Below, piece after piece: positions 3,125 to 41,216 of a stretch of 49,228 bases of DNA. The stretch spans positions 1 through 49,228 of the IMG/VR virus record IMGVR_UViG_3300045258_000056; one strand, written 5' to 3'. Below the pieces are notes generated by a model. That model was not told where the DNA came from and searched no databases. It saw only the letters and a list, made by a program, of their open reading frames with translations. Origin of the DNA: a virus. How positions within the stretch are numbered: the stretch's first letter is position 1; each line of letters starts with the position of its first letter. Both the position numbers and the translations under genes were made by a program.

Positions 3125-3513
3125 AGCCGATTGACGCGAAGTGGCAGGAAGTGGGCCGGGAGCCTATGTCGCGCAAGCAACAGAAGCTCCTAAACGCGGC
3201 TTGCGGCGACCTAGAGGAACAGTTGCGCTGGCGTGGTCGGCGTATGTCGAAAGATAGCTGGCGGCACTTCTTTTGCGGAACGATTTTAGGGCATGAGCCG
3301 TTGCCAGGATGGGACTATGGCGACGGGCGCGAGAGCGTGATATACATGCCTAGGTCGAGCCTAGAACTTTCCAAGACGCAGGCAACCGAGGCGATCACGA
3401 TGGCGTTTTTTCTTGGCGACAATCCCTCCGATCAAGACTGTGGAAATATTCCGGTTCGCTGGTGCGAAGTGATTGTTAAGGCGCGGTGGATAGTGGCTGA
3501 TGGCGATGCGTGA
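3121..3513 (+). CDS. ninB: NinB-like recombination protein
   Basis: 130 residues, the usual length of the NinB family. The core reads LRWRGRRMSKDSWRHFFCG, then GHEPLPGWDYG, then SSLELSKTQATEAITMAFF, the same order as in lambda NinB (Orf), a recombination mediator that helps load RecA-type strand exchange in place of host RecFOR. Its partners would be the Erf annealase and YqaJ exonuclease in the leftward operon. The last 14 nt overlap the start of the methyltransferase. Confidence 0.8.
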   Translation: MKPIDAKWQEVGREPMSRKQQKLLNAACGDLEEQLRWRGRRMSKDSWRHFFCGTILGHEPLPGWDYGDGRESVIYMPRSSLELSKTQATEAITMAFFLGDNPSDQDCGNIPVRWCEVIVKARWIVADGDA

Positions 3514-10659: not shown

Positions 10660-10750
10660 GGAAGGGTGGCAGAGCGGCAATGCGTTCGCTTGCTAAGCGA
10701 TAGCCGGGCACGAAAGTCCCGCGCCGGTTCGATTCCGGCCCCTTCCGCCA
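10660..10750 (+). tRNA. tRNA-Ser (GCT)
   Basis: 91 nt with all arms: acceptor GGAAGGG/CCCTTCC, anticodon loop TTGCTAA (anticodon GCT), long variable arm GGGC-ACGAAA-GTCCC, T-arm GCCGG-TTCGATT-CCGGC, discriminator G and encoded CCA (10748-10750). First gene of the three-tRNA operon. Confidence 0.93.
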
Positions 10751-10757
10751 AGTTCAG

Positions 10758-10845
10758 GGAAGGTGCCGCTGGGTTGGCTGGCAGACAGCCTCGAAAACTG
10801 TAGGTGCCGTAACAGGTAGGGGTTCGACTCCTCCGCCTTCCGCCA
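10758..10845 (+). tRNA. tRNA-Ser (CGA)
   Basis: 88 nt: acceptor GGAAGGT (10758-10764) with GCCTTCC (10835-10841, one G-U), loop CTCGAAA giving anticodon CGA, stem ACAG/CTGT, variable arm TGCC/GGTA around GTAACA, T-arm with TTCGACT, discriminator G and CCA (10843-10845). The T-stem and the last pair of the anticodon stem are slightly imperfect. A tRNA-Sec identity was considered because of the long arms, but the loop does not carry TCA. Confidence 0.8.
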
Positions 10846-10847
10846 TT

Positions 10848-10933
10848 GGAGAGATAGACCGCTAAGGAGGCGGGACGGGCTGTAACCCCGTTGGCGCAAG
10901 CCCCGCAAGGCTCGATACCTTGTCACTCCACCA
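10848..10933 (+). tRNA. tRNA-Tyr (GTA)
   Basis: 86 nt: acceptor GGAGAGA with TCACTCC (one mismatch), anticodon stem ACGGG/CCCGT perfect with loop CTGTAAC (anticodon GTA), variable arm TGGC-GCAA-GCC, T-arm CAAGG-CTCGATA-CCTTG, discriminator A and CCA (10931-10933). The T-loop starts with C where T is usual. Last tRNA before the terminator. Confidence 0.82.
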
Positions 10934-19635: not shown

Positions 19636-21060
19636 ATGAAGACCTTCGCTGAACAAATCGCTGCTTTGGAGGCCACTCGCGCCGCCAAGTCGGCCCGCAT
19701 GGCTGAGATCATGCAGAAATCCATGGATGAGGGCCGTTCTACCGATACGGCTGAATCCGAGGAGTTCGACACCGTTGAGGGTGAAGTCAAGACCCTTGAC
19801 GCCGACCTCGTGCGCCTTCGCAAGATGGAACGCATTGCCGCCGAGAACGCCAAGGCCGTGGATACCGCGCCCGTGCGTGATACCCCGGCTCGCCCCGATG
19901 GCCTCGTCACGCTCAAGACCGTGGAAAAGCTGGAGCCGGGCATCGCGTTCGCCCGTTACGCCATGTGCTTGACCAAGGCCAAGGGCAATCACCTGATCGC
20001 GTTCCAGTTGGCCGAGCGCCACTTTCCGCAGACCGAGTCTGTGGTCAAGACGCTGAAGTTCCAGTCGGAAGGCTGTGACTTGCAGGAAATGATGAGGATC
20101 AAAACCACGATCCCAGCGGGTACGTCCACCGATTCCACTTGGGCGCTCCCGTTGGTGTACGCCAATACCTTCGGTGGTGACTTCATCGAATACCTGCGTC
20201 CGCGCACCCTGATCGGTCAGGCACAGTTCCGCGCCGTTCCGTTCAATGTTCGCATCGGCGGCCAGACCAGCGGCGGCACGGCGGGCTGGGTCGGCCAGGG
20301 CAAGAGCAAGCCTGTTACGAAGTTCGACTTCAACGCCACGACCGTTCCGTTTACCAAGGTCGCGGCCATTGCGGTCATCACGCAGGAGCTGGCTCGTTTC
20401 TCCGATCCGTCGGCGGAGCGTCTGGTGCGTGACTCGCTGGCGGATTGCGTCATCGCCCGCGTGGACTCGGACTTGTTTGATCCCGATGTGGCGGCAGTCG
20501 CCAACGTCAACCCGGCTGGCCTGCTGAACGGCGTGAATCCGGTGGCTGGCCCGACCGGCAGCGACCCGGATGATATTCGCTGCGCGTTGCTTCGCCTGTG
20601 GGCACCGTGGGATTCGACCAACATCGGTGCGCGTCCGGCTTACTTCACGACTCCCGCTGTCGCTCGCTTCCTGGCGTTCATGCGTGATGCGTTGGGTACT
20701 CCGGCGTTCCCTGGCGTGACTCCGTTCGGCGGCTCGCTGGATGGCATCCCGCTGCGTGTTTCGCAGTACCTCGCCAACAACGGCGGTTCCGGTGGCGCTC
20801 CCTTCATCCTGGCGGATGAGGCGGAAATCTACTTGGCCGACGATGGCAGCGTGACGCTCGACCAGTCCGATCAGGCTTCCATCGAAATGACGGATGCTCC
20901 GGTCGGTTCGTCCAGCGCGTCGGTGACCAGCAATGGCTCGCCGTTCGTGTCCATGTGGCAGACCAACAGCATCGCGTTCCGCGCCGAAAGGTTCATCTGG
21001 TGGGGTGCCCGTCGTTCGGGTGCTATCCAGTGGATTGACGGCTTCCCGACCGCCTGCTGA
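19636..21060 (+). CDS. Major capsid protein, HK97 fold
   Basis: 474 residues from ATG 19636. Residues 1-110 are the charged, helical delta/scaffold domain (FAEQIAALEATRAAKSARMA) expected to be removed by the protease. The HK97 core follows, with VRIGGQTSGGTAGWVGQG, KVAAIAVITQELARFS, the conserved C-terminal SMWQTNSIAFRAERF and WWGARRSG. A strong terminator lies directly after the stop. Confidence 0.93.
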   Translation: MKTFAEQIAALEATRAAKSARMAEIMQKSMDEGRSTDTAESEEFDTVEGEVKTLDADLVRLRKMERIAAENAKAVDTAPVRDTPARPDGLVTLKTVEKLEPGIAFARYAMCLTKAKGNHLIAFQLAERHFPQTESVVKTLKFQSEGCDLQEMMRIKTTIPAGTSTDSTWALPLVYANTFGGDFIEYLRPRTLIGQAQFRAVPFNVRIGGQTSGGTAGWVGQGKSKPVTKFDFNATTVPFTKVAAIAVITQELARFSDPSAERLVRDSLADCVIARVDSDLFDPDVAAVANVNPAGLLNGVNPVAGPTGSDPDDIRCALLRLWAPWDSTNIGARPAYFTTPAVARFLAFMRDALGTPAFPGVTPFGGSLDGIPLRVSQYLANNGGSGGAPFILADEAEIYLADDGSVTLDQSDQASIEMTDAPVGSSSASVTSNGSPFVSMWQTNSIAFRAERFIWWGARRSGAIQWIDGFPTAC

Positions 21061-21564: not shown

Positions 21565-22909
21565 CCCGACGATTATGGCCGTGCTGAGTAACGCGGCCTC
21601 CCGCAAATCGCTTCATCCTGTCTATGACTCGCATGGTGGTCATGGCGGCTGGCGGCGAATCTTTGAGCCATTCTCGGGCGCTTTTCAAATGAATGTGGAG
21701 GAGGCTCGGGGCACCCTGTTCTGCTACCCGACCCTGTATGCCTGTCTGTCCCGAATCTCTCAGGACATTGGCAAGCTGCCGTTTGTGCTGAAAAGTCAGG
21801 ATGCAAACGGGGTATCGAAGATTGTCGAAAACTCGGCTTACTCCCCGGTACTTCGCAAGCCCAATCACTACCAGACCGCGCAACAGTTCCGCGAAGCGTG
21901 GGCCTTGTCTCGCATGATCCACGGAAACGCCTATATTCTCAAGCAGCGCGATGATCGCGGCGTGGTAGTGAAGCTGTACGTGCTAGACCCCTGCCGCGTG
22001 ATGCCGATGGTTTCGGACTCGGGCGATGTGTTCTACCAAGTCAATTATCCCGATGCCGCGAATCTTCTGCCGCAGAATTACCCAGCCGAGCAGTTGACGA
22101 TTCCAGCGCGGGAAATCATCCACGACCGCATCAATTGCTTCCACCATCAGCTAATCGGTGTGCCGCCTGTGTGCGCTGCCCATTGGCCTGCGGTGAAGAA
22201 TCTCAAAATCCTGAAGTCTAGCGCGGAGTTTTTCACAAACAATGCGCAGCCGGGCGGCATCCTGACCGCGCCTGCGGGCATGAGCGAAACCGATGCCGAC
22301 GCGCTGAAGGCTTACTGGCAGACCAATTACAGCGGCACCAATTCCGGCAAGGTCGCGGTGATCGGTGCTGACATGAAGTTCACCAGCTTCGCCATGAAGT
22401 CCGCTGACTCGCAGCTTGTCGAACAAATGCGTTATTCGGATGAGCAGATTTGCCAGCCGTTCGGTATCCCTCCCTTCAAAATCGGCATCGGCTCCATTCC
22501 TGCGGGTCTCGGCGTGGATGCCATCAATTTGCTGTATTACGATGACGCGCTCGGCGGCCCGATTGAGTCCATGGAAAACTTGCTAGATGAGGGGCTGTCT
22601 GTCGCTTCTCCGCTCGGCATTTGGATGGACACCGAGCCATTGCTCCGGATGGACGTGGGCAAGCAGGCCGACGTGGAGGTTAAATTGGTAGGCGGCAAGA
22701 TCAAGACCCCGGATGAAGCCCGCTTGCGGTTCAATCTTGCAGGCACTCCAGGCGGCGGCACCCTGTGGGGCCAGCAACAGGACTACCCGCTGGGCATGTT
22801 GGAGAATCGCGCAGACTGGGATCCGGCCATGCAAACGGCCCCCGCGCCTGAAGCTCCCGCGCCCATCCCCGATGACGAAATGGATGCCACTATGGACGAA
22901 GCCGCATGA
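21557..22909 (+). CDS. Portal protein (HK97 type)
   Basis: 450 residues from ATG 21557. Typical features: early YPTLYACLSRISQDIGKLPF, then HYQTAQQFREAWALSRMIHG, PAREIIHDRINC, then EQMRYSDEQICQPFGIPPF, all landmarks of HK97-family portals. It forms the dodecameric DNA gate at one capsid vertex and binds terminase and the connectors. Confidence 0.93.
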   Translation: MANPTIMAVLSNAASRKSLHPVYDSHGGHGGWRRIFEPFSGAFQMNVEEARGTLFCYPTLYACLSRISQDIGKLPFVLKSQDANGVSKIVENSAYSPVLRKPNHYQTAQQFREAWALSRMIHGNAYILKQRDDRGVVVKLYVLDPCRVMPMVSDSGDVFYQVNYPDAANLLPQNYPAEQLTIPAREIIHDRINCFHHQLIGVPPVCAAHWPAVKNLKILKSSAEFFTNNAQPGGILTAPAGMSETDADALKAYWQTNYSGTNSGKVAVIGADMKFTSFAMKSADSQLVEQMRYSDEQICQPFGIPPFKIGIGSIPAGLGVDAINLLYYDDALGGPIESMENLLDEGLSVASPLGIWMDTEPLLRMDVGKQADVEVKLVGGKIKTPDEARLRFNLAGTPGGGTLWGQQQDYPLGMLENRADWDPAMQTAPAPEAPAPIPDDEMDATMDEAA

Positions 22910-23790
22910 CCCCCGAAATTCAGAAGTCCATCCTGGGAGCCTGCGCCCGGTTCATCCGAAAGCAGCTTGAACCTATCACACGGGAGATTGGCGAGCTAAA
23001 GAGCCAGCTTTCGACGGTCACGAAAGCCGCGCCTGAACCTGTGCCGGTTCCTGAGGTTGTGAAGGAACTGCTTTCCACCGAAGGCCTGCAAGTGATGGTT
23101 GACTTGCATGTGGCCGAAGGCGTGTCAAAGCATTTTGAGGAACATCCGGTAAAGGATGGCGAGTCGGTTAGCCACGAGTCTGTGAAAGCGATGGTTGATG
23201 AGGCTGTCAAAGCCATCCCAGCGCCCCATGACGGCAAGTCGGTTACCGCTGAGGAAGTGTTGCCCGCGCTTATGGACGCCTTGCACAAGGCCGTTGCAGC
23301 CATTCCTAGGCCCAAAGACGGCGAGGATGGCAAGTCAGTATCTCTGGCCGACCTTGAACTTTTGCTGGAGTCGGCGGTGAACAAGTGGGCGCTGGAGTTT
23401 GAGCGCCGAGCGCAGGCTCAGATTGAACGCGCCGTTGACCGCCTGCCCGTTCCGAAAGATGGCAAGGACGGCGTAGATTTTGCGGAAGTCGAATTTGACT
23501 ATGACGGCGAGCGCACACTGACGATTCGCGGCAAAGGCGGCGAGATTACCAAGCGCCTGCCGATCCCGATTGATCGCGGTTATTACCGGCAGGGCATGGC
23601 CTGTGAAAAGGGCGATGTAGTCACCGAGTCCGGCAGCGCGTGGATTGCCTTGACCGACACCGACACGAAGCCCGGACACGAGCAGAAAGACGCTTGGCGC
23701 ATGATGGCGCGTAGGGGCAAAGATGGCGATAAGGGCGATCCTGGCAAGGCCTATGTGCCCCCGGCCCCGGTGAAACTGGACACACCATGA
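22906..23790 (+). CDS. Collagen-like structural protein with putative carbohydrate-binding module
   Basis: 294 residues from ATG 22906 (ATGA overlap with portal). The N-terminal third is helical (ARFIRKQLEPITREIGELKS). Collagen-like spacers recur: HDGKS, PKDGEDGKS, PKDGKDG and near the end GKDGDKGDPGK. Residues about 225-270 (YYRQGMACEKGDVVTESGS, then WIALTDTDTKPGHE) resemble a small carbohydrate-binding domain seen in many phage structural proteins. Probably a head or neck decoration protein able to touch sugars. It lies a few genes before the glycosylation cassette. Confidence 0.65.
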   Translation: MTPEIQKSILGACARFIRKQLEPITREIGELKSQLSTVTKAAPEPVPVPEVVKELLSTEGLQVMVDLHVAEGVSKHFEEHPVKDGESVSHESVKAMVDEAVKAIPAPHDGKSVTAEEVLPALMDALHKAVAAIPRPKDGEDGKSVSLADLELLLESAVNKWALEFERRAQAQIERAVDRLPVPKDGKDGVDFAEVEFDYDGERTLTIRGKGGEITKRLPIPIDRGYYRQGMACEKGDVVTESGSAWIALTDTDTKPGHEQKDAWRMMARRGKDGDKGDPGKAYVPPAPVKLDTP

Positions 23791-24182
23791 CCGACTTGGT
23801 TTCAACCACTGAGGCTCGCTCCCATTTGCGGCTGGATACGGTGCCTTCGGGTTCGCCGGATGATGTGTGGCTGGCGGTGTTTATCCCGGCTATTTCCGAG
23901 GCTGTGCTTGGCTGGTTGAAGGACGCATGGCGGGCCTATGTGCCGATGGAGGATTCCAGCGGCATCCTTGTAGATTCCAACGGTGACCCCATTCCGGCCC
24001 TTCCCTTGACGGCAAAGCCGGTTGTTAAAGCGGCGGTCTTGCTGGAGCTTGGCAATGTGTTCCGCTTCCGCGAAGGTGAGGGCGTGGATAACGTGCCCGA
24101 CCCCTCCGCAGGCTGGGGCTACACGCTGAACAAGACTTCCACGGCGCTGCTATCCGGTATTCGGAAAAGTACCCTGAAATGA
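23787..24182 (+). CDS. Head-tail connector (gp6-like adaptor)
   Basis: 131 residues from ATG 23787. Start DLVSTTEARSHLRLDT, then VFIPAISEAVLGWLKDAW and PLTAKPVVKAAVLLELGNVF are standard for the HK97 gp6/phage_gp6 connector family that sits below the portal. Coupled by ATGA to the next connector. Confidence 0.88.
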   Translation: MTDLVSTTEARSHLRLDTVPSGSPDDVWLAVFIPAISEAVLGWLKDAWRAYVPMEDSSGILVDSNGDPIPALPLTAKPVVKAAVLLELGNVFRFREGEGVDNVPDPSAGWGYTLNKTSTALLSGIRKSTLK

Positions 24183-24544
24183 GCATCGCAGCGGGCAGGC
24201 TTCGGCATTGGGTGACCCTGGAGCGGTTTACCTTTGTGCAGGACAGCGCGGGCGACCCGATTCAAGACCCGGTGTCGGGTGAGCTTCGCAAGGAATGGAC
24301 GGAAGTGGCGCAGCTTTGGGCGGCCATTGAGCCATCATCGGCGCGGGAGTTCATCGCCAGCCAAGTCGGGCAGTCTGAGGTGACGGGCAAGATCATCATC
24401 CGCTATCGCCCCGATGTGCTGGCAACGGACAGGATTGTGCATAATGGCCGGGCTTACCAGTTGTTCGGAGTGCTGGGGGATTTGTTCAGCGGCATGGAGT
24501 ATTTGACCTTGCCTTGTGGCACCGGACTGAATACAGGCGAGTAG
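24179..24544 (+). CDS. Head-tail joining protein (head closure)
   Basis: 121 residues from ATG 24179. MSIAAGRLRHWVTLERFTF, later VAQLWAAIEPSSAREFIA and the end DRIVHNGRAYQLFGVLGD match the phage head-tail joining family (PF05521 type), which stops DNA leakage after packaging. It is followed by the modification cassette rather than by the usual gp10-like gene, which comes only at 29111. Confidence 0.88.
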   Translation: MSIAAGRLRHWVTLERFTFVQDSAGDPIQDPVSGELRKEWTEVAQLWAAIEPSSAREFIASQVGQSEVTGKIIIRYRPDVLATDRIVHNGRAYQLFGVLGDLFSGMEYLTLPCGTGLNTGE

Positions 24545-24545
24545 C

Positions 24546-25073
24546 ATGGAAACGTGGGCCATTCTGGCAAGCGGCCCCAGCATGTCGCAGGCGATAGCGG
24601 ATTCGGTGCGCGGTCGCTGCAAGGTGATCGCGGTATCAGATTGCTTCAAGCTCGCGCCTTGGGCCGATGCGCTGGTGTCGCAGGACAAGCCGTGGTGGAA
24701 GTTTCACAAGCCCGAATTTTCAGGGCGCAAGTTCAGCGGCGGGGCGGAAAACATTGAAGGCACCGAGCGCGTAGAGTTTGAGGGCAGTATCGGCACGGGC
24801 ACGAATAGCGCGTTGCTAGCCTGTCATGTGGCGGTCAAGGTGTTCGGTGCAAAGCGGATTCTGTTGCTGGGCGTGGATATGGGTGGAACCCATTTTTTCG
24901 GGCCTCACCCTGAGCCGCTAAAGAACACGAAGCCGGAACGGTTTGAGCAAATGAAGTTGCAGTTTGCACACTGGGTTCACAAGGGCGTGGAAGTTTTCAA
25001 TTGTTCGCCTGATTCGGCGTTAACCTGTTTTCCAAAGGCGACCCTTGAAGACTGCCTATCTCGGCCTGCGTGA
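24546..25073 (+). CDS. DUF115/MptE-like Rossmann protein, possible glycosyltransferase
   Basis: 175 residues from ATG 24546. Starts WAILASGPSMSQAIADSVRG, then VIAVSDCFKLAPWADALVSQ; the later GTGTNSALLACHVAVKVFGA and ILLLGVDMGGTHFFG complete a Rossmann-like fold of the DUF115 (MptE-like) group, often present in sugar-modification clusters of bacteria and phages. First gene of a seven-gene cassette; it overlaps the next by 29 nt. Confidence 0.65.
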   Translation: METWAILASGPSMSQAIADSVRGRCKVIAVSDCFKLAPWADALVSQDKPWWKFHKPEFSGRKFSGGAENIEGTERVEFEGSIGTGTNSALLACHVAVKVFGAKRILLLGVDMGGTHFFGPHPEPLKNTKPERFEQMKLQFAHWVHKGVEVFNCSPDSALTCFPKATLEDCLSRPA

Positions 25074-25770
25074 AGGTCTGCCCTACCGCCGAGAGGCGTT
25101 CAGGGCCGGACTGGAATCGCTGGGCTACACGGTTCGGGAGTGCATCACGCTCAAGCCGGAGTCGGGCGACCTGTTGTGCCTATGGAATCGGTACGGCGAG
25201 AAGGACTTGGCGGCGCTGGCATTTGAGGCGGCAGGACTTCCCGTGCTGATCGCGGAAAACGGCTATCTCGGAAACGAGTTCGCCGGGAAGCAATGGTTCG
25301 CCTTGTCCCGGAACCAGCACAACGGGGCCGGAACCTTCTCGGAGGGTGGCCCGGAACGCTGGGACAGCTTGGGCGTGACCTTGCAGCCGTGGCGGGAAAG
25401 CGGGGAAACTGTCCTGCTTCCGCAGCGTGGGATTGGGCCTCCGGGCGTGGCGATGCCGAGAGACTGGCTAGAACGCACCCAGAAGCGGTTAGGCGGGGCT
25501 TCGTATCGTGTGCGGGTTCATCCCGGCACCCGGTCTTGTATGCCGCTTGAGGACGATCTAGCGGACGCTGGGCGGGTTATCACTTGGGGGTCAGGCGCGG
25601 CGCTGAAGGCGCTAACCTGGGGCATCCCGGTGGAGTCGGATATGCCCCGATGGATCGGAGCATGTGAAAACACGGACGCGGGACGGTTGGCGATGTTCCG
25701 CAGGCTGGTTCACGGCATGGCAACGCTGGAGGAAATAGCGGACGGGTCGGCCTTTAGGAGATTGCTTTGA
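25045..25770 (+). CDS. Putative GT-B-like glycosyltransferase (paralogue 1)
   Basis: 241 residues from TTG 25045 (no nearby ATG). It shares a pattern with its neighbour: SLGVTLQPWRESGETVLLPQ here versus SLGVRIEPWQEGGDEILIVG there, and both end with an Ala-rich helix before a Gly-Ile/Val-Pro-Val turn (ALKALTWGIPVESD). The pattern YRVRVHPGTR, then a Thr/Ser and small residues, is like GT-B enzymes that bind a nucleotide-sugar in the C-terminal domain. Donor and acceptor are unknown. Confidence 0.55.
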   Translation: MKTAYLGLREGLPYRREAFRAGLESLGYTVRECITLKPESGDLLCLWNRYGEKDLAALAFEAAGLPVLIAENGYLGNEFAGKQWFALSRNQHNGAGTFSEGGPERWDSLGVTLQPWRESGETVLLPQRGIGPPGVAMPRDWLERTQKRLGGASYRVRVHPGTRSCMPLEDDLADAGRVITWGSGAALKALTWGIPVESDMPRWIGACENTDAGRLAMFRRLVHGMATLEEIADGSAFRRLL

Positions 25771-26546
25771 AGGTCGCGTGTTTGATGACATTCGGGAATC
25801 GGCGTTACCGCCATATTGCCGAGGCCATGAGCCTAGGCATTGCGAAGTGCGGCGACCAGTCGGTCATTTGCCATGCGGCCTCCACGCCTAACGCCGATGC
25901 CGCTGTCATGTACGGTTGGAAGCTGTCCCACTTCGTTAAGCAGTACCCGCAGTTTGCTTATGCCGATTTGGGCTACTGGCACCGAAAGGACTACTACCGC
26001 CTGACCGTGAATGGCTGGGGGTCGGAAAGCTACGTCAAAGCGGGATTGCCTGCCGAGCGCCTGAAGTCGCTAGGCGTTAGGATTGAGCCGTGGCAGGAAG
26101 GCGGTGATGAAATACTGATTGTCGGCTCTAGCCGCAAGTCAGCATTGCAGCACGGCTTTCAATACATGGAGTGGGAGCGAAACGCAGCTAAGGCTTTGGA
26201 ATGTTCGGGCAAGCGGGTGGTGTATCGCCCGAAGCCTACTGACCTGGAGCGCATACCGATTGACGGCATTGGCTACGATGAACGACCGTTAGAGGAAGCG
26301 TTAGCGAAAGCCTGCCTAGTGGTCACGCATCATTCCAACGTGGCCGTGCAAGCGTTAGCCGCTGGTGTGCCGGTGCATTGCGTGACCGGCGCTGGCGCAG
26401 CGTTCAGTGTGCCGCTGGGTGACTTCACGCGACTGGAAGGCCGGGAACAATTCCTGGCCGATGTGGCTTGGCTGCAATGGAGTCTAGACGAAATGCGGAA
26501 CGGCACATGCTGGGCGCATATCAAGGAACGAGGGCTGATGTGCTGA
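25767..26546 (+). CDS. Putative GT-B-like glycosyltransferase (paralogue 2)
   Basis: 259 residues from TTG 25767, overlapping the previous stop. Paralogue of the gene before it (shared SLGV..PW.E.G core and the C-terminal VVTHHSNVAVQALAAGVPVH, a typical GT-B nucleotide-sugar pocket with GVPV). The N-terminus MTFGNRRYRHIAEAMSLGI suggests a Rossmann start. Acceptor unknown. Confidence 0.6.
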   Translation: MKVACLMTFGNRRYRHIAEAMSLGIAKCGDQSVICHAASTPNADAAVMYGWKLSHFVKQYPQFAYADLGYWHRKDYYRLTVNGWGSESYVKAGLPAERLKSLGVRIEPWQEGGDEILIVGSSRKSALQHGFQYMEWERNAAKALECSGKRVVYRPKPTDLERIPIDGIGYDERPLEEALAKACLVVTHHSNVAVQALAAGVPVHCVTGAGAAFSVPLGDFTRLEGREQFLADVAWLQWSLDEMRNGTCWAHIKERGLMC

Positions 26547-27244
26547 CGTTTGACGTGGTGACTACCTTCGCCCAGAAGCACTGGGAGTCTCATGCGCGGC
26601 GCTGTGTGGAAACCTTCGGCCTGTACTGGCAGGGCATCCACCTGACCACGTTTGATGATGAGGCGCTTGAATCGGGGTCGGATTGGTTGGCAGCTTTCAA
26701 AGAGCGACACAAAGACCGGCCTACGGATAACTACCGCAAGGATGCGGTGAGGTTCGCGCACAAGGTAGCAGCGATTGAGCTAGCGTTTCAGGGCGGCATT
26801 TCCGACTACCTGATTTGGATGGACGCTGATTGCGTGACCCATGCTCCGGTTGACGTGGCATGGCTGACGCGGTTGTCGCAAGGGGCGGACTTCGCCTATC
26901 TGGCGCGGGACAGGAAGTATTCCGAGTGCGGGTTCCTGATGATTCGCAGGAATCAGCGCGGCGAGAAGCTGATTAAACGCCTAGTGGACTTGTACCGCAC
27001 CGACAAGCTATTTCTGCTTCCGGAGTGGCATGATTGCTGGGCGTTTGACCATGCTAGGAACGGATTGCAGGGGCAGCTTCAGTGCGCTTCCCTGTCGGGC
27101 AATGCCAACCGCATGGCCCATCCGTTCGTTAACGGGCCGTTGGGCGAAAGGCTTGACCATTGCAAGGGCGCTCGAAAGGCGCAGGGCCGAAGCCATGCCA
27201 GCGATTTGAAAGTACAACGCACTGAGGCCCACTGGAATGTCTAA
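26540..27244 (+). CDS. Putative GT-A glycosyltransferase
   Basis: 234 residues from GTG 26540, chosen because it overlaps the preceding stop; the frame is open to 26468. LTFDVVTTFAQKHWESHARR is a GT-A-type start, and YLIWMDADCVTHAPVDV contains the DxD metal/nucleotide-sugar motif, followed by FAYLARDRKYSECGFLMIRR. So a nucleotide-sugar-dependent transferase is likely. Confidence 0.7.
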   Translation: MLTFDVVTTFAQKHWESHARRCVETFGLYWQGIHLTTFDDEALESGSDWLAAFKERHKDRPTDNYRKDAVRFAHKVAAIELAFQGGISDYLIWMDADCVTHAPVDVAWLTRLSQGADFAYLARDRKYSECGFLMIRRNQRGEKLIKRLVDLYRTDKLFLLPEWHDCWAFDHARNGLQGQLQCASLSGNANRMAHPFVNGPLGERLDHCKGARKAQGRSHASDLKVQRTEAHWNV

Positions 27245-27821
27245 GCGGTACGAGCAATTGATTCCGCTGATTCAGACGTGCAAGCCGCGCTGTATCGTGG
27301 AGGTCGGGGTTCACAAGGCCAAGCGGTCTGTGAAGATGTGCGAGGCCGCGCTAAAGTTCGGCCCGGTGCACTACATCGGCTATGACGTGTTCGACACGAT
27401 GGGAGCGCAGTTTCAGGCGGAGGCACTGAACGGCAAGGGTCCGGCTACGGAAGCCCATGCGCGAGACAAGCTGAACGCGCTGGCTAGGGTGCGGAGTGGA
27501 TTCACCTATGAGCTGATCGTGGGAGATACCCGAAACACCCTGCATGGACGCGGCGTTAAGGCCGACTTCGCCTTCATTGATGGCGACCACAGAGCGGAAG
27601 TGATCGAAGGCGACTATTTGGCGCTGCATCTTTCCCCGGTGATCGTGCTGGATGATTACTACGTCGAAAACGAAGGACGGATGCCAGTTGACCTTGCCAA
27701 GCATGGCGCTAACTCCCTGGTCGGGAACCTTCGTATTTCCGGGCATCGGGTAGAGGTATTCCCCGTGGCCGACTGGTGCAACGCGGGGCCGCTGGTGAAG
27801 TTGGCGGTGGTGTTCCGGTGA
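27237..27821 (+). CDS. Class I SAM-dependent methyltransferase
   Basis: 194 residues from ATG 27237. Motif I CIVEVGVHKAKRS (residues 19-31), acidic residue after the second strand in YIGYDVFD, and DFAFIDGDHRAEVIEGD (110-126) typical of the Methyltransf_24-like group. It would methylate a small or sugar substrate using S-adenosylmethionine. Overlaps its neighbours at both ends. Confidence 0.78.
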   Translation: MSKRYEQLIPLIQTCKPRCIVEVGVHKAKRSVKMCEAALKFGPVHYIGYDVFDTMGAQFQAEALNGKGPATEAHARDKLNALARVRSGFTYELIVGDTRNTLHGRGVKADFAFIDGDHRAEVIEGDYLALHLSPVIVLDDYYVENEGRMPVDLAKHGANSLVGNLRISGHRVEVFPVADWCNAGPLVKLAVVFR

Positions 27822-28456
27822 AGATGGTCAAGGGCTGGGCCGTTCCTGATTTTGATGACCAGTGGGAGGGCTTGATCGCGGAGGATGGGACTTACCAATA
27901 TCCCAACCTGATCGCAGCGGTATCCCGGTGCAAGCGGCTGCGGACGGTGATTGATGGCGGGGCGCATATCGGCACATGGTCTCGGGTGTTCGCGTCATTC
28001 TTTGATCGCGTGATTGCCTTTGAACCGTCGCCGGATACGTTCGAGTGCCTTCTGGAAAACGTGAAGCTAGGCAACGTAGAGATTCTGAACCAGGCCCTAG
28101 GCCAGAAGCGCGGCAAGGTCAGAATGACGCTGGATGGCTTTGAGGGAACGAAGCGGGAACACAATGCAGGCTCTCGCTACTGCGCCAAAGGTGGGGACAT
28201 TGCTCGGGTCACGGTGGATTCGCTGGAACTGAAAGACCTTGACCTGTTGAAACTTGACATTGAAGGCAGCGAAGTTCACGCGCTCAAGGGCGCGAAGCAC
28301 ACGCTGATTCGGTGTCGGCCCGTAGTTTTGTTTGAGAACAAGTTTGAGTGGAAGCGCCACGGCTTTAAGGAAAATGCGCCGCATCGCTTCCTGCGGTCTC
28401 TGGGCGCAAAGAAACTTGACCATGTTGGTGTGGATGAAGTTTGGGGTTGGAAGTGA
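27818..28456 (+). CDS. FkbM-family methyltransferase
   Basis: 212 residues from GTG 27818 (overlaps the previous stop); ATG 27824 is also possible. TVIDGGAHIGTWSRVFASFF (motif I), VIAFEPSPDTFECLLENV, then VTVDSLELKDLDLLKLDIEG and the LFENK end are the FkbM signature. FkbM enzymes O-methylate sugars or polyketides, which fits its place among glycosyltransferases. Confidence 0.85.
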   Translation: MKMVKGWAVPDFDDQWEGLIAEDGTYQYPNLIAAVSRCKRLRTVIDGGAHIGTWSRVFASFFDRVIAFEPSPDTFECLLENVKLGNVEILNQALGQKRGKVRMTLDGFEGTKREHNAGSRYCAKGGDIARVTVDSLELKDLDLLKLDIEGSEVHALKGAKHTLIRCRPVVLFENKFEWKRHGFKENAPHRFLRSLGAKKLDHVGVDEVWGWK

Positions 28457-29118
28457 TTGAGCTTTTCTGTGGATACGACCGGCGAGAAGCTGGCGGCTTT
28501 CATGCGTTCGTTTCTAGCGTGTTGGACAATGCTTCGGAATTGGTTTGCATCCGACCGCTCGGGGCTAAAGGACTTCCCGAGGGAACCAATGCCTTCACGT
28601 TTTCCCGGTTTCTGATTCCGGCGCTGATGGGATTCAAGGGCCATGCGATTTTCGCGGATGCCTGCGATATGCTGATGCTCGGTGACGTTGCGGAGTTAGA
28701 CAAGCTCTTTGACCCGAGCAAGGCCGTTCAGTGCGTTAAGCACGATTACCGGACACGCCATCCGATCAAGTATAAGGGCACCGAAATGGAGTGCCCGAAC
28801 CGGGATTATCCCCGCAAGAACCAAGCAAGCCTGATGATTATTAACGCTTCTCACCCTGCTTGGCGCGGCATGACGCACGAACGGGTGCTGGAGTTTGCTA
28901 CCGTCCCAACGCAATTGCTGGGGTTTGCATGGTTGCCCGATGAGGCAATAGGCGAGCTTCCCGACCATTGGAACCGGCTTGTGGATGAAGGTCAGCCAGT
29001 GGAGGGCGCGAGCGTTCTCCATTGGACTGCCGGTATTCCGGGGTTCGATTACTACAAGGATGCGCCAGGGGCCGAACATTGGCACCGGCAAGCAAGGCTG
29101 ATGAACGCTAATGGCTAG
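28453..29118 (+). CDS. Putative GT-A-like glycosyltransferase
   Basis: 221 residues from GTG 28453, overlapping the FkbM stop; TTG 28441 would add four. LFCGYDRREAGGFHAFVSSV and the segment FTFSRFLIPALMGFKGHAIF then ADACDMLMLGDV correspond to the donor-binding core of GT8/GT-A-like enzymes (metal-binding Asp residues in DACD). The C-terminus SVLHWTAGIPGFDYYKD agrees with that. Last gene of the cassette; overlaps the tail gene that follows by 8 nt. Confidence 0.7.
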   Translation: MIELFCGYDRREAGGFHAFVSSVLDNASELVCIRPLGAKGLPEGTNAFTFSRFLIPALMGFKGHAIFADACDMLMLGDVAELDKLFDPSKAVQCVKHDYRTRHPIKYKGTEMECPNRDYPRKNQASLMIINASHPAWRGMTHERVLEFATVPTQLLGFAWLPDEAIGELPDHWNRLVDEGQPVEGASVLHWTAGIPGFDYYKDAPGAEHWHRQARLMNANG

Positions 29119-29584
29119 CTTTAACATCGAAGGTCTTGACCCCATCCTGAAAAAGATGAAGGGCCTAAGCCAGAAGATGCAGCAGGCCGGAGTTAGGCGA
29201 GCGGGGCTGAAGGCCATGCGGCTTGTGCGCGATGATGCTAGGGCGCGGGCCAAGCAGTTTGATGACCCTTCCACGCCGAATAACATCCCGAAAAACATTG
29301 TCGTTCGCAACAATAGCAAAGCAGGCAAGCGCGTCGGCGGAGTGGTGATTCAGGTCGGTGTATTGGGCGGAGCGAAAAGCGAGCGTTCAACACGCGGCAA
29401 AAACGCCAGCAATGACAGCGGCAGCAAAATTTGGTACTGGAGGTTTTTGGAGTTCGGAACCAGCAAAATGCGGGCGCAGCCTTTCATGCGCCCAGCACTA
29501 GCTAACAACGTGGAAAAGGTAACGACCAGTATGGTGACCAGCCTGAACACCGAGATTGATAAAATTATTGCGAAGGGTGGCTGA
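29111..29584 (+). CDS. HK97 gp10-like tail completion protein
   Basis: 157 residues from ATG 29111. MASFNIEGLDPILKKMKGLS, then GLKAMRLVRDDARARAKQF, and WYWRFLEFGTSKMRAQPFMR are the standard elements of HK97 gp10-like neck/tail completion proteins. It should normally follow the head-closure gene directly, so the modification cassette has been placed between them. Confidence 0.9.
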   Translation: MASFNIEGLDPILKKMKGLSQKMQQAGVRRAGLKAMRLVRDDARARAKQFDDPSTPNNIPKNIVVRNNSKAGKRVGGVVIQVGVLGGAKSERSTRGKNASNDSGSKIWYWRFLEFGTSKMRAQPFMRPALANNVEKVTTSMVTSLNTEIDKIIAKGG

Positions 29585-30231: not shown

Positions 30232-31113
30232 ATGGCTGATGCGGATTCTACCTTAATTCGAGTTTGTACCAAGTGCGGGTTCGGCAAGCCGCATAGCGAA
30301 TACAGCAAGACAAAGCGGACTGTCATTGGGCGCGTGTCCAAGTGCAAGGCTTGTTGTGCGGAGTATGCCAAGGTTAACCGCGCACGGATTAGCGAGCTTT
30401 CATTGGCCCGGTACCATCGGCTTTTCGGTGTGCCACAGAGGAAGGCCAGGGAGGAGGAAAGGCAAGCAAAGCGAGTTCGCAAAGATAAGCGATGCGCAAA
30501 GTGCGGCGAGACAAAGGCGGTACAGTTCTTTGCAAAATCAAAGCAGAAGATTGACGGCAGGAAGCCGTATTGCAAGGCATGTGAAAACGAGGCCAGTAGG
30601 CAACGCAGGGTAGAAGACCCCAGTACAGGACGGGCGGCTTCTGAAAGGTGGCGGCTTGCTAATATGGATAGGGTTAGAGCAACCCATCGCCGCTACTACG
30701 AAGCCAATAAAGAAAGAATTTCTGTTAGACATGCAAAGTGGAAAATTGCTAGCTCGGACAAGATCAAGGCAGCTTATGAGCGCCGGAGGCAAAGGCCCGA
30801 GTGGCGGATAAAGCGGGCGATTAGTTCAAGAATCAGGATGCTTCTAGTAGAGAAAGCGGGCCGCAAGACTGAGGAGATTATCGGTTATTCGGCCAGCGAT
30901 CTTAGGAAGCACATAGAGAAACAGTTTCTTCGCGGCATGAGTTGGAGCAACTATGGCGAGTGGCATATAGACCATATAGTTCCAGTTTCTGCTTTCAATA
31001 TCCGAGGATTTGACTTAGCTGAAATACGCCGGGCTTGGGCATTGCCAAACCTTAGGCCACTTTGGGCGAAAGACAATATCCAAAAGAGTGCTAAACGCAC
31101 TCACCTAATCTAA
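30232..31113 (+). CDS. HNH homing endonuclease-like protein
   Basis: 293 residues from ATG 30232 with GGAGGGG upstream. Two N-terminal zinc modules (CTKCGFGKPHSEYSKTK, then CKACCAEYAKVN; CAKCGETKAVQFFAKSK, then CKACENEASRQRR) precede a basic helical part and the nuclease core EWHIDHIVPVSAF, ending LPNLRPLWAKDNIQKS, a common free-standing phage homing nuclease type. It sits between tail terminator and major tail protein and has its own terminator. Base composition is lower in G+C than the flanking tail genes, which suggests insertion. Confidence 0.85.
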   Translation: MADADSTLIRVCTKCGFGKPHSEYSKTKRTVIGRVSKCKACCAEYAKVNRARISELSLARYHRLFGVPQRKAREEERQAKRVRKDKRCAKCGETKAVQFFAKSKQKIDGRKPYCKACENEASRQRRVEDPSTGRAASERWRLANMDRVRATHRRYYEANKERISVRHAKWKIASSDKIKAAYERRRQRPEWRIKRAISSRIRMLLVEKAGRKTEEIIGYSASDLRKHIEKQFLRGMSWSNYGEWHIDHIVPVSAFNIRGFDLAEIRRAWALPNLRPLWAKDNIQKSAKRTHLI

Positions 31114-31213: not shown

Positions 31214-31678
31214 ATGAGCATCACTAGTCAGCGCACCCAGCTTTTCGTAATTGACACTTCCAACGACTCCATCTTGCAGGTCGGTTGCCCGACCAACATT
31301 GACGGCATTGACTCCACCGTGGGGCAGAATGAAACAACCTGTCTCGGTGACTCGACCCGCACCTATATGGCTGGCCTTGCCACGCCGGGCGCGGCCACTT
31401 TCACGATCAACTTCGACCCCGCCGACGCTTCCCACGTTCGCCTGCATCAGCTCAAGGTAGCGGGAACTACGCTGACTTGGGCGGTGGGAATGTCGGACGG
31501 CACGGCGGCCCCGACCTTCTACACGAACGGCGATTTTGACCTGCCGACCTCGCGTAGCTGGATTCAGTTCAACGGCTTCATGACTTCGTACCCGTTCACC
31601 TTCGCGCTGGATACCCCGGTGACTTCCAACATCGGCATCCAGGTGTCCGGTGACCCGGTGTTGACCGTCAAGGTCTAA
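31214..31678 (+). CDS. Major tail tube protein
   Basis: 154 residues from ATG 31214. The beta-rich sequence with early ITSQRTQLFVIDTSNDSILQ, AATFTINFDPADASHVRLHQ and FNGFMTSYPFTFALDTPVTS resembles lambda gpV/HK97-type tube proteins, and it lies right before the chaperone and tape-measure genes. It should stack as hexamers along the tape measure to form the flexible tail. Confidence 0.85.
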   Translation: MSITSQRTQLFVIDTSNDSILQVGCPTNIDGIDSTVGQNETTCLGDSTRTYMAGLATPGAATFTINFDPADASHVRLHQLKVAGTTLTWAVGMSDGTAAPTFYTNGDFDLPTSRSWIQFNGFMTSYPFTFALDTPVTSNIGIQVSGDPVLTVKV

Positions 31679-36547: not shown

Positions 36548-39516
36548 TGTCTGCCGGTTCTATCATTGGTGGCATCATTGGTGCGGTCATTGGCTACTTT
36601 GCGGGCGGCAATGTCGCGGCGGGCTGGGCGATTGGCTCAGCAATTGGCGGCTATGTTGACCCCGATCAAATAAAAGGCCCCCGGCTTTCAGACGGTCAGG
36701 CGGTCACTTCACAGGAAGGCATCGCCATTCCCTTCGGGTTCGGTACCTTCCCGATTGGCGGTAATCTCGTTTTTGCCGGTGAACTGATCGAGCATGAGGA
36801 AAAGGAAAGTGGCAAGGGCGGCCCGGAAGTCATCAACTACGTCTATACCCGCAGCTATGCCGTAGGCATTTGCGAGGGGCCGATCACGGCGGTAGTCAAG
36901 GCTTGGCGTAACGGAAAACTGGTCTATGACACGACCCCCGGCAGCGCCATCCTCGGACAAAATTCCAAGTTCCTGATGGGGCATACGTTCTACTTGGGAA
37001 CTGAAACTCAGAACGTTGACCCAACCATTGAAGCAGCCGTTGGTGTCGGTAACTCTGGCCCCATGCGCGGCCTGTGCTACATGGTCGCGGAAGATGAAGA
37101 CCTGACCGAAATGGGCGGCGCGGTCGCTCAGTGGCGGTTCGTGGTTCAAATGTGCGGAACGGTCACTGATATTCCCTCCCCCGCTGAACCTACACTTCTC
37201 ATGGGTGCTACTGAGTATCGCGGGCCGCCTGCGGCCTTGGGCGCTCTCAGTGGAACTGCCCCTACGCTGGCCCGGACCCACCATTCGGCCTCCTCAGTGG
37301 ATGGTATCGTGCTTGCCTGTGAAACAGGCTCCAATGACCTAGAAATATACCGCTGGAACGGCACTGTCTATGTCCTGCAAACCATCATCGGCACTACACC
37401 AGGAACCAGCGCCAATGCTATCGGTGATGTATGCGTTTCCGATGATGGCCTGTGGGTTATTTGCGCGGCCTACGATGCACAAGCCATCTACTCCTACAAG
37501 TTTGATGGCGTGTCCACCTACACGAACTTCAACACGGAGCCATACCCGATCTATCCGGCTGGCATTTGTTTCTCTCCGAGCGAGTCTGAGATTGCGGTAG
37601 CGGGCTACGCTTTCGCAGGCTCCTACATCACGCGCTACACCTTCAACGCTACCACGGGCGCTTTGAGTTCAGCCATTAACTCGCCTAGCGTGGGCGGAGG
37701 CATTACCCATTCGTCTGTGGACTGGTACGGCTCTAAGATATTGGCCTCCGATGGGACAGCCTGCAAACTGTTTGATGATTCCAGCATGGCGCAGATTGCC
37801 GTGGCCTCTGTCAATCCAGCAGGCCGGGCTTTCTTTAGCCGGGACGGACAGTATGTGTACCATCACAACTATGTTCTTGATGGTGGAACGCTTGCAACGA
37901 TCAATAGCTACACCTCCGCAGGCACAGGTTATGCGGACACGACCATCACCAAGGACCGTGGCTATTTGCTGATCGCAAATGCTAACACGGCCTGCGACCT
38001 GTATTCTTTGAATGGCTCTTTCATGTCTGCCATCACCGCGCCTGCGGTTATCACGGGCGGATTTGGCGCATTGTTCACGGGGCTTGGCCCTCCTGCCTCT
38101 TGGTATCCGGTGCCGGATGCTGAGAATGTGTACGTGGACTTGGACGGCATTGTCCATGCCGAATATTCTGGCGGTTCAGAAGTAAGCTCTTGCGGCGCGT
38201 ACCTCGATGACATTGTCGCTAACCTATGTGACCGGGCGGGCATTGAGCCGACCGAGTACGATGTTACCGACCTGTCCACAATTTTCGTCAAAGGCTATGG
38301 CTGCGCGGTGGAGTCCAGCGCCCAAGGCTTTATTGAGCCGCTGACTCAGGCGTTTTTCTTTGATCGTGGCGAATGGGACAAAAAGATTCGGTTCATCCTT
38401 CGTGGAAAGGCTTCAATCGCTAGCCTTGACCCGGATGACCTTGTGGCAATGGATGGTCCCTCCATTGTGAAAACCCGTATTCAGGAAGTGGAGCTTCTGC
38501 GGAAAGTGAATGTCATGTCCGCAGACCCACTGGCGGAATTTAACCTTGCCAAGCAATCCGCCGAGCGTCGGATTGGTACGATCCAAGCCAAGGGCGAAAG
38601 TACGGTAGAAATACCGATGGTGCTGGACGCGGATGCGGCGGCTCAGCTTGCCGACAAACGTATGAAGGTGGCATGGGCTGAAACTGACAGGTTCAATTTC
38701 GCGTACACCCTTGCGCATTCAGACCTAACGGCCACCGACGTTATCACCCTGACTGACAAGGCGGGCATCCCGAATCGCACGCGCCTAAACTCAATGGCCC
38801 AAGAGTCCGGCATTATCACCATTGAGCAGGGCATGAAAGACCGAGCCTCCACCTATTCCAGCACGGCAATTGGCGTTCAGAACCCTAACATTCCTGGCAA
38901 CCAATCGGACTTGATTGGCCCCACCTTGTTTAGCGCGATGGCCCTTCCCCCGCTTCGCAGCGAGGACAATACTCCGGGCCTGTATGTGGGGCTATGCGGC
39001 ATTCTGGACGGCTGGGCGGGCGCTACGCTGCTTATGTCGGTGGATGGCGGCGTGAGTTACACGGCGGTCTTGAGCGTGACCATTCCGACCATCATGGGGA
39101 ACCTGACCGCAGGGGAGGATAGCAATGGCGAGCCGATACAAGTGCGCGTGTATGGCGGCATACTCTCCAGCGCGACCCCGGCACAAGTGGCGGTCGGGCA
39201 GAATTGGTCAGCCATTGAAACCAATGACGTTGCTGAGATTATCTCCTACGAAACTGCGACCCAAACCGGAACTAAGACCTATGATCTAACCGACATTGCA
39301 CGGGCGGTAGATGAAACGGATTATGCCCAGCACTTTGAAGGCGATGAGTTTATGGACTTGAGCACGGCCTACTATCTGCCGATTCCGCAATCTCTGGCCG
39401 GAACCACGCTGTACTTTAAGGCGGTCGGGTTTGGCGTGTCGGCGGATTCGGTGGACGTGATTGCCATTCCCTGGCTAGGCGTAGAGTACGTTGAAGATGG
39501 CGGGGAGATTCCATGA
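36547..39516 (+). CDS. Large tail hub/host-specificity protein with beta-propeller insertion
   Basis: 989 residues from ATG 36547. Begins with a Gly-rich membrane-like motif (IIGGIIGAVIGYFAGGNVAA) common to phage tail-tip proteins of the GTA gp15/lambda J group, then GFGTFPIGGNLVF and YTRSYAVGICEGPITAVVKA. Residues about 225-520 are different: repeated blades with NAIGDVCVSDDGLWVICAAY, GICFSPSESEIAVAGYAF and GRAFFSRDGQYVYHH look like a YVTN/WD-type beta-propeller. The hub fold then resumes (CGAYLDDIVANLCDRAG). The propeller is probably a surface-exposed receptor-binding insert. Confidence 0.82.
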   Translation: MSAGSIIGGIIGAVIGYFAGGNVAAGWAIGSAIGGYVDPDQIKGPRLSDGQAVTSQEGIAIPFGFGTFPIGGNLVFAGELIEHEEKESGKGGPEVINYVYTRSYAVGICEGPITAVVKAWRNGKLVYDTTPGSAILGQNSKFLMGHTFYLGTETQNVDPTIEAAVGVGNSGPMRGLCYMVAEDEDLTEMGGAVAQWRFVVQMCGTVTDIPSPAEPTLLMGATEYRGPPAALGALSGTAPTLARTHHSASSVDGIVLACETGSNDLEIYRWNGTVYVLQTIIGTTPGTSANAIGDVCVSDDGLWVICAAYDAQAIYSYKFDGVSTYTNFNTEPYPIYPAGICFSPSESEIAVAGYAFAGSYITRYTFNATTGALSSAINSPSVGGGITHSSVDWYGSKILASDGTACKLFDDSSMAQIAVASVNPAGRAFFSRDGQYVYHHNYVLDGGTLATINSYTSAGTGYADTTITKDRGYLLIANANTACDLYSLNGSFMSAITAPAVITGGFGALFTGLGPPASWYPVPDAENVYVDLDGIVHAEYSGGSEVSSCGAYLDDIVANLCDRAGIEPTEYDVTDLSTIFVKGYGCAVESSAQGFIEPLTQAFFFDRGEWDKKIRFILRGKASIASLDPDDLVAMDGPSIVKTRIQEVELLRKVNVMSADPLAEFNLAKQSAERRIGTIQAKGESTVEIPMVLDADAAAQLADKRMKVAWAETDRFNFAYTLAHSDLTATDVITLTDKAGIPNRTRLNSMAQESGIITIEQGMKDRASTYSSTAIGVQNPNIPGNQSDLIGPTLFSAMALPPLRSEDNTPGLYVGLCGILDGWAGATLLMSVDGGVSYTAVLSVTIPTIMGNLTAGEDSNGEPIQVRVYGGILSSATPAQVAVGQNWSAIETNDVAEIISYETATQTGTKTYDLTDIARAVDETDYAQHFEGDEFMDLSTAYYLPIPQSLAGTTLYFKAVGFGVSADSVDVIAIPWLGVEYVEDGGEIP

Positions 39517-41216
39517 CCACAACCGTCATTATCCCGAAGCGCCGCCAAGAGCGCAGGGGTACGGCTGCGGCTGCGGCCCTGCTCAATGAGATTCTTCTCG
39601 CTGGCGAATGGTTCATTGAAACCGACACCCTGAAATTCAAAATCGGGGATGGGGTCACGGCTTACAATAGCTTGCTCTATGTGGGCGAGCTGGCGAACCT
39701 TGGCGACCCCGCAGCAGACCGGCTTGTCTATTGGGACAACACGATAAACCAGTATTCCTTCCTGAAACTTGGAACAGGCCTAGCGATTGGCAGCGGCGGC
39801 GATTTGGATGTGACGGTCACTGGCGGTAGCCAAGCATCCATCCAATTCAAAGACGAAGGGACCAACCTAGGCACATCCGGCACGGTTGATACCGTAGATT
39901 TTACCGGCTCTGTGACAGCCTCTCGTGCGGGCAATGTGGTGACTGTCAATGTCACTGGCGGAAGTGCTTCGGATGCCGTGGACACGCTGTCCAATCTGAC
40001 AATTGCTACCAGCCGCAGCGCAGGCGCGGAAACCATCGCGCTCAAAACCAAGGCAGGCACCGACCCGGCGAGTGGTGATGCCATTACCCTATGCTTCCGC
40101 GATGCCGCTTCCACCACAGGCGGCTACACGGCCCGCACGATCACGGCGGCCACTTCGCTAGTTATCAATTCCGGCGCGACCCTGGGCGCTGACAAGTCCG
40201 CTACATCAACGGTCACTATTGCCACGCCTGCGGTTGCTAGGCAGGGAAGTTCTGGCCCGGACTATCACCGCCAGCGCCCCGGAGATTCTTTCGTGTGGTC
40301 AACCACGGGCGCTTTGCCGACTGGCATCACCGCTGGTACGACCTATTACATTATCGAGGCCGGTTTCAGCCAACTCACCTTCCAATTCTCGGCAACGCTC
40401 GGCGGGGCAGCGGTCAATACGTCTGGCACTCAGTCGGGCGTTCACACGATCACATGGCTTCCCAAGCCCTTCCGGGTTTGGATTGTGGCAGGAGATGATG
40501 CGGGCACCATCCGGCTCGGCGTGATTAAGTGCTCGCTGCCCAACTTCAACGTGTTTTCCCTGCGCGACGATCAGATTGTCAGCTCGACGGCGATTGGCAC
40601 AGGCTCAGACAGCGCGGGGGTGTTCTACTCCGGCAGTGCGTGGACTTCCAAGGCCATCCGGATACTCGGCTATCTTGAGTACACCCTGACCGTTGCGGGC
40701 ACCTGGGATGCTGCGCCGACCTTCGTGCAAGTGTTCGGCAAAGGCATGTGTATGCCCGGCCAGATTGTGCAAGACCGCTATACCGACCTTCCGCTGATAA
40801 GCCAAGGCACAACACTTATCCCGTTCGACAATACAGTTCCTCAGTCCAACGAAGGAGACGAATATTTCAGCCTAGCCTTTTCGTCGCGTTCTCTGTGCAA
40901 CGTGCTGGATTTCAGTGGGGAGTTCACTTTTGAAGTCAACACGATTGGCAATAACTGCGCTGTGATTTTGATTAAAGACACAGAACCTTCAGCGGTTGCT
41001 ATCTCTATTGGCTCCCATGCCGCAACTGCAAGCCGTGCGAGACCGTTCTATCTTCGACACCGGCAATATGTACCCTCAGTGTCTAGCATTACTTGGCACG
41101 TCCGCGCGGGCTGTAACAACGCCAGCACGCTTTACCTAAACTCTACAAACGCAGGCGGAGCAAATTACGGCTGGGCCACCATCAGCGCCCTACGGGCCGT
41201 GGAGATAATGGCCTAG
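39513..41216 (+). CDS. Tail fibre protein
   Basis: 567 residues from ATG 39513 (ATGA). The N-terminus has RGTAAAAALLNEILLAGEWF then FKIGDGVTAYNSLLYVG, the 'tropism' module found at the start of many phage fibres. The rest is beta-rich and low in charge (GSVTASRAGNVVTVNVTGGS), ending with a compact domain. Probably the main host-binding fibre. Last plus-strand gene, 35 nt before the convergent leftward operon; a weak 5-bp hairpin, CCCTG/CAGGG (41217-41235), lies in between. Confidence 0.82.
   Translation: MTTTVIIPKRRQERRGTAAAAALLNEILLAGEWFIETDTLKFKIGDGVTAYNSLLYVGELANLGDPAADRLVYWDNTINQYSFLKLGTGLAIGSGGDLDVTVTGGSQASIQFKDEGTNLGTSGTVDTVDFTGSVTASRAGNVVTVNVTGGSASDAVDTLSNLTIATSRSAGAETIALKTKAGTDPASGDAITLCFRDAASTTGGYTARTITAATSLVINSGATLGADKSATSTVTIATPAVARQGSSGPDYHRQRPGDSFVWSTTGALPTGITAGTTYYIIEAGFSQLTFQFSATLGGAAVNTSGTQSGVHTITWLPKPFRVWIVAGDDAGTIRLGVIKCSLPNFNVFSLRDDQIVSSTAIGTGSDSAGVFYSGSAWTSKAIRILGYLEYTLTVAGTWDAAPTFVQVFGKGMCMPGQIVQDRYTDLPLISQGTTLIPFDNTVPQSNEGDEYFSLAFSSRSLCNVLDFSGEFTFEVNTIGNNCAVILIKDTEPSAVAISIGSHAATASRARPFYLRHRQYVPSVSSITWHVRAGCNNASTLYLNSTNAGGANYGWATISALRAVEIMA

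Follow-up and report, generated by a model that had tools for sequence, protein, structure and literature searches.

The virus record IMGVR_UViG_3300045258_000056 (IMG/VR) was analyzed over its whole length of 49,228 bases (the window, positions 1 to 49,228) and represents an unclassified HK97-type siphovirus. In its late operon, seven extra genes (g1-g7) are located between the genes for the head-closure protein Hc1 and an HK97-gp10-like tail-completion protein. It is proposed here that this cassette probably encodes a pathway of soluble cytoplasmic enzymes, produced alongside the virion proteins, by which a short methylated glycan is added to one or more of these proteins. Virion glycosylation by phage enzymes is already known, experimentally for a few mycobacteriophages: Che8 and Corndog, and also Myrna, self-glycosylate their virions using their own glycosyltransferases (GTs), with capsid and tail-tube targets (PMC12363180). 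The enzyme set of the present cassette, its recurrence in virion operons of phages that infect Gram-negative bacteria and its ancient g2/g3 gene pair were not found described, and no paper describing the cassette was found in the literature searched, subscription papers being mostly outside the search.

The late operon runs from terminase, protease, major capsid protein (MCP, 19636-21060), portal, a collagen-like protein, Ad1 and Hc1 through the seven extra genes to the gp10-like protein, the tail terminator and the major tail protein (31214-31678). Seven + strand open reading frames (ORFs) of at least 150 codons tile 100% of positions 24546-29118 and the opposite strand has none of this length, whereas the same coverage measure in shuffled sequence had a mean of 3% and a maximum of 28%; the seven-gene cassette reported in a preliminary description of this DNA, inside the head-tail operon, is thus upheld. 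The same description held that all starts overlap stops. Most junctions do overlap, by 4-29 nt, but Hc1 and g1 are 1 nt apart and, with g6 starting at ATG 27824, g5 and g6 are 2 nt apart. Better starts for g4 (GTG 26540), g6 (ATG 27824) and g7 (GTG 28453) were assigned from alignment and overlap. The G+C content of g1-g7 (0.56-0.63) is similar to that of the flanking genes, and the number of internal promoters and terminators in the cassette was not above that in shuffles. Coordinates and assignments are collected in Table 1.

Table 1. The cassette, its two flanking genes and the collagen-like protein gene in the window, with the basis of each assignment.
Feature	Positions	Strand	Length (aa)	Basis
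g1, stand-alone Maf_flag10/GT42-like glycosyltransferase	24546..25073	+	175	phrog_4603 3e-32; PF01973 in homologs; model fold
g2, KpsC/WbbB-fold glycosyltransferase, first of pair	25045..25770	+	241	AlphaFold2 (AF2) model; HP motif
g3, g2 paralog, second of pair	25767..26546	+	259	Profile-profile homology to g2; tree
g4, GT-A-type glycosyltransferase	26540..27244	+	234 (from GTG 26540)	Invariant D-A-D; weak Glycos_transf_2, E 0.012
g5, class I S-adenosylmethionine (SAM) methyltransferase, Methyltransf_24	27237..27821	+	194	PF13578 9e-7, above cut-off
g6, FkbM methyltransferase	27824..28456	+	210	PF05050 8.6e-17 (62.2 bits, cut-off 22.7); phrog_8156 1.7e-28
g7, GT8-like GT-A glycosyltransferase	28453..29118	+	221 (from GTG 28453)	phrog_28018 2e-27
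Left flank, head closure Hc1	24179..24544	+		PF05521 2.7e-21; phrog_25 7e-22
Right flank, HK97-gp10-like tail completion protein	29111..29584	+		PF04883 4e-6; phrog_5 6e-21
Collagen-like/portal-associated protein	22906..23790	+		Occurs in empty-slot relatives too

The phrog_4603 family to which g1 is assigned is labelled 'alpha-2,3-sialyltransferase', and PF01973 is matched by 31 of 40 g1 homologs, the window protein itself falling under the curated cut-off. The AF2 model of g1 (predicted local distance difference test score, pLDDT, 93.3) best matches Maf (PDB entry 5mu5; Z 14.2, root-mean-square deviation 2.7 over 158 of 175 residues), followed by the sialyltransferases Cst-I and Cst-II (Z ~12), with the following fold at Z 9.8. 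The earlier term 'DUF115-like' was therefore right and can be sharpened to a Maf/GT42 fold. Maf proteins O-glycosylate Ser/Thr of flagellin, a self-assembling protein, in the cytoplasm using cytidine monophosphate (CMP)-sugar donors, and a clostridial Maf accepts the CMP-activated form of the ulosonic acid Kdo (CMP-Kdo; PMC11339370). The predicted fold shared by g1 is that of the central catalytic domain; unlike Maf, g1 is phage-borne and, as a single domain of 175 residues, shows none of the three-domain architecture of the full enzyme, lacking its N- and C-terminal domains. Cst-I and Cst-II belong to the same CMP-sugar class, but their identity to g1 is low (14-18%) and g1 is shorter. Among 95 loci, g1 precedes all other sugar genes in 93; this position fits that expected of an initiating enzyme, a role which, with the modelled fold, is probable.

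The following two genes are related to each other, as the preliminary description had proposed for two GT-B-like paralogs: g2 and g3 share 29% local identity and their family profiles align with E 2.9e-41 (hhalign). No Pfam family was significant for either window protein. The AF2 model of g2 (pLDDT 95.5) matches Kdo transferases with Z 9.7-12.0 (KpsC, 8fuw, 12.0; WbbB, 11.9; KrkA, 9.9) and other folds with Z of at most 6.0. The CMP-binding HP motif, which together with a QXXXD nucleophile has been defined for retaining Kdo transferases (PMC10148158, PMC12887879), is invariant in 37 of 37 aligned g2 sequences. However, the nucleophilic Asp is missing from g2, which reads QRGIG with Gly at this position, and g3 contains no QXXXD. 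In addition, the E-N-G and HP pattern of g2 resembles motifs known from GT52/GT80 sialyltransferases, D/E-D/E-G and HP (PMC4202792). Judged from its model and motifs, g2 thus resembles a CMP-ulosonic-acid transferase, yet stands outside the retaining Kdo families, since the KpsC fold and HP motif are combined with Gly at the Asp of QXXXD. It shares fold and HP motif with KpsC (GT107), WbbB (GT99), KrkA (GT140) and Pfam Capsule_synth, but differs from them also in being a short single domain. The GT-B fold of g3 is assigned through its homology to g2; Lys replaces the His of the HP motif (K-P or K-G in most members), and 10 of 39 members have weak matches to the glycosyltransferase family DUF6716.

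A tree of 152 g2/g3 homologs has two supported clades (0.999 and 0.981), corresponding to the first and the later cassette copy, and the order of the two is fixed across siphoviruses and Caulobacter jumbo phages. Since the clades match copy order, the duplication, on this phylogeny, predates the module's spread to both of these groups. Relatives of the pair were also observed in other settings. In a Hyphomicrobiales contig (L242, 7416-9602), just after a type I restriction system, one protein fuses a GT8 and a Capsule_synth (KpsC/KpsS) domain, the latter matched by the g2 profile (E 1.8e-9), and a g3 relative adjoins it; g7-type and g2-type enzymes have therefore been linked independently of phages. 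In a prophage of a Rhodanobacter type strain with an unrelated capsid type (L240, 9012-10711), a g3 relative stands alone immediately after the major capsid gene.

The remaining genes would supply further transfer and methylation. The two genes earlier called 'GT-A-like' fared differently: g7 is GT8-like, whereas g4, with a DxD invariant in 15 of 15 aligned sequences, gave no match of its profile against the PDB and has no firm family. Among 40 g7 family members, 19 match PF01501 (best 4.9e-9), the window protein giving no match, and the family profile has weak PDB matches to WbbM, GT8 and glycogenin. The metal-binding motif is D-A-C-D in the window g7 and D-x-D in other members; the family alignment contains two forms, D-x-D and a version longer by one residue, D-(A/G)-x-D. 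Both g5 and g6 are probable sugar O-methyltransferases by family membership, each above its Pfam cut-off, in agreement with the class I and FkbM enzymes named previously, and the g5 family profile matches solved O-methyltransferases (best chain 6g7d, 1e-10). A tblastn search with g5 against named phages gave no match, and the g6 protein alone as a query in viral contigs found no relatives. By crude hydropathy, no stretch of g1-g7 is hydrophobic enough for a membrane segment (highest mean over 19 residues 1.63), and no flippase or membrane GT partners such as those of serotype-converting gtr operons were found among them.

Scans of viral contigs by alignment yielded related stretches for g1 (at least 547), g2/g3 (76) and g7 (446). 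The g2/g3 pair occurs in 73 non-redundant loci, with g1 in 54 and g7 in 55; at least two virion genes lie on the fetched piece in 56 of the 73. Together with g4, g5 and g7, the pair is present in eight loci including the window. The commonest place of the module is between Hc1 and gp10 (16 loci), others being between portal and Hc1, between the major tail protein and the tape-measure protein, after the latter, and before the large terminase. As a further observation, in the podovirus MW202713 (L328, 2165-6581) a TibC-labelled glycosyltransferase, g4, a methyltransferase, g3 and a pyridoxal phosphate (PLP)-dependent enzyme directly precede the large terminase.

To define slot occupancy, loci were fetched by portal lineage and retained where both flanks were visible. 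The Hc1-gp10 slot was empty in 21 of these 35 loci, with Hc1 abutting gp10, as it also does in Stenotrophomonas phage SOVA965, in keeping with the supposed normal adjacency of head-closure and tail-completion genes. In the 14 filled slots the insert is 1.7-5.5 kb, includes g1 in 13 and sometimes consists of g1 and one other gene. When occupancy was mapped onto a tree of portals from 71 loci, the filled and unfilled states had to interchange at least 12 times, and by this comparison the cassette is an accessory module that is gained and lost.

Named phages carry related cassettes, all annotated gene by gene only. In Pseudomonas phage PAJU2, g1 (gp10), gp11 (an unassigned protein of 275 residues) and a methyltransferase occupy this very Hc1-gp10 slot. 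Phage D3, also of Pseudomonas, has equivalents of gp11 and the methyltransferase in the corresponding stretch, and its g1 is placed between capsid and Ad1. Unlike the present cassette, these sets comprise three genes, without g2/g3, g4 and g7, and no description of them as a unit was found. A similar trio lies ahead of Ad1 in Psp6, and a longer cassette precedes Hc1 in 'Tetraselmis viridis virus' S20, whose genes mark it as a tailed phage. The Caulobacter Dolichocephalovirinae CcrColossus (gp126-gp131) and CcrBL9 (g1 homolog gp527) contain homologs of g1-g2-g3-g7 in the same order with a methyltransferase; here, however, the module lies between tail and lysis genes of phages of about 300 kb, and no g4, g5 or g6 homologs were found among its genes.

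In the proposed pathway, g1 would attach a host CMP-activated ulosonic acid (CMP-Kdo or a nonulosonic acid) to Ser/Thr, g2, g3, g4 and g7 would extend the glycan, and g5 and g6 would cap it by O-methylation, with attachment occurring before or during virion assembly. Gram-negative hosts make CMP-Kdo for lipopolysaccharide (LPS). Because a clostridial Maf takes this donor, and the genes scanned (several short ORFs lying outside the scan) included none recognisable as serving nucleotide-sugar or modified-base synthesis, the activated sugar would be supplied by the host. The host is likely to be Gram-negative since a Stenotrophomonas phage (60%) and Rhizobium phages are among the nearest named relatives by terminase; six loci turned up in a search of genome contigs, and none of them identifies this phage's host. 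We infer a virion protein as the acceptor from the virion-operon location, supported by the mycobacteriophage precedent (PMC12363180) and the Che8 locus; any benefit may lie in shielding, altered adsorption or stability.

As in Che8 and Corndog, GT genes are phage-encoded (here g1-g4 and g7, as predicted from profiles and models). Che8 gp108-gp110 comprise GT2, Methyltransf_24, GT2 and GT25 domains, gp108 joining GT2 with Methyltransf_24, the family of g5. However, these genes lie near the right genome end rather than in the head-tail operon, the present cassette has other folds (Maf and KpsC), and comparison of g1-g7 with gp108-gp110 gave short marginal local matches with no convincing homology.

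The preliminary description saw a glycan-building and methylating module with virion proteins as the likeliest target. The Maf-like first enzyme, the lack of a membrane segment, the recurrence in virion operons and the mycobacteriophage precedent are consistent with this, whereas the collagen-like protein that it listed among the candidates is rejected as a cassette-specific target, occurring whether the slot is filled or empty, including in SOVA965. In cassette-bearing phages the Ser/Thr fraction is higher in the MCP (0.141 versus 0.129, p 0.002) and in Ad1 (0.113 versus 0.095, p 0.0008), which is a lead only, as 27 tests were made and relatedness was uncorrected.

Several points weigh against the proposed pathway. 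Glycosylation of these virions is predicted from their genes, no glycan having been observed on them, and none of the virion proteins shows a clear pattern of presence or absence in step with the cassette. The fold matches of g1 and g2 were obtained with predicted models, and for g1 the Maf match came from a second aligner, Foldseek by itself returning nothing at E <=0.001. The use of Kdo is uncertain because g2 and g3 do not have the nucleophile of retaining Kdo transferases. Furthermore, some g4 and g7 relatives lie outside virion operons; in Pelagibacter phage Mosig (L327, 7668-13502), a methyltransferase, g4, g7, a sulfotransferase and a glycosyltransferase are found near ribonucleotide reductase genes.

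A late-infection role in modifying a surface polysaccharide of the host (LPS core or capsule), for instance against re-adsorption to debris or against competitors, is considered unlikely. KpsC/WbbB, GT8 and FkbM enzymes are typical of LPS and capsule biosynthesis, lipid-linked glycans can be substrates of soluble peripheral GTs, and the position of the module in the Caulobacter jumbo phages also suits such a role. However, the closest fold to the first enzyme is a protein O-glycosyltransferase, the cassette contains no flippase, membrane GT, polymerase or membrane segment, and it lies in a late virion operon and not beside integration genes, where serotype-converting gtr operons sit. Glycosylation of phage DNA, as by the T4 glucosyltransferases, appears very improbable: phage GTs acting on DNA are known and the early region encodes a C-5 cytosine DNA methylase (3500-4234; PF00145, 2.9e-26), but no hydroxymethylpyrimidine or other base-hypermodification gene was recognised among the scanned genes, the cassette is in the head-tail operon, and GT42/Maf and KpsC folds are not known among DNA GTs.

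The sugar genes might also have been acquired independently, as morons with no joint product, and kept because the Hc1-gp10 junction tolerates inserts. The constant order g1-g2-g3-...-g7, seen across unrelated phages and at differing operon places, the ancestral g2/g3 pair that stays together and the invariance of catalytic-type residues make this improbable, even though the inserts vary in size and content and the slot is often empty.

Other features of the window are as follows. The right-flank gp10-like protein has 41% identity to D3 orf14, and megablast of the operon against phages gave a single match, 135 bases of the portal gene. Between the tail-terminator and major tail protein genes, a probable free-standing HNH-type gene (30232-31113), called by reading a zinc-finger-like pattern (the Pfam HNH match was not significant), is likely to be a mobile insert in the tail operon. 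A gene for a TROVE/Ro60-like RNA-binding protein (9087-10391) adjoins tRNA-Asn (8924) and tRNA-Ser, -Ser and -Tyr (10660-10933); CcrColossus also has a TROVE gene (gp139) near its cassette. The tail fibre (39513-41216) shows weak similarity to the N-terminal domain of the major tropism determinant (Mtd_N; 9.7e-5, under the Pfam cut-off), and no reverse transcriptase was recognised among the window genes scanned.

A more specific proposal is tentative: the module may be a portable protein O-glycosylation pathway of phages with Gram-negative hosts, in which CMP-Kdo or another CMP-ulosonic acid starts a methylated capsid or tail glycan, the initiator being Maf-like and g2/g3 forming a new KpsC-related pair of transferases that do without the known Asp nucleophile. 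If virion modification by the cassette is correct, the 'alpha-2,3-sialyltransferase' and 'hypothetical' labels on module genes would need to be revisited, and the module would be a source of compact protein glycosyltransferases with Maf and KpsC folds. A glycosylation and methylation module would then be a widespread trait of phages that infect Gram-negative bacteria, among them cultured isolates from Caulobacter and Pseudomonas, in which it would be directly testable.

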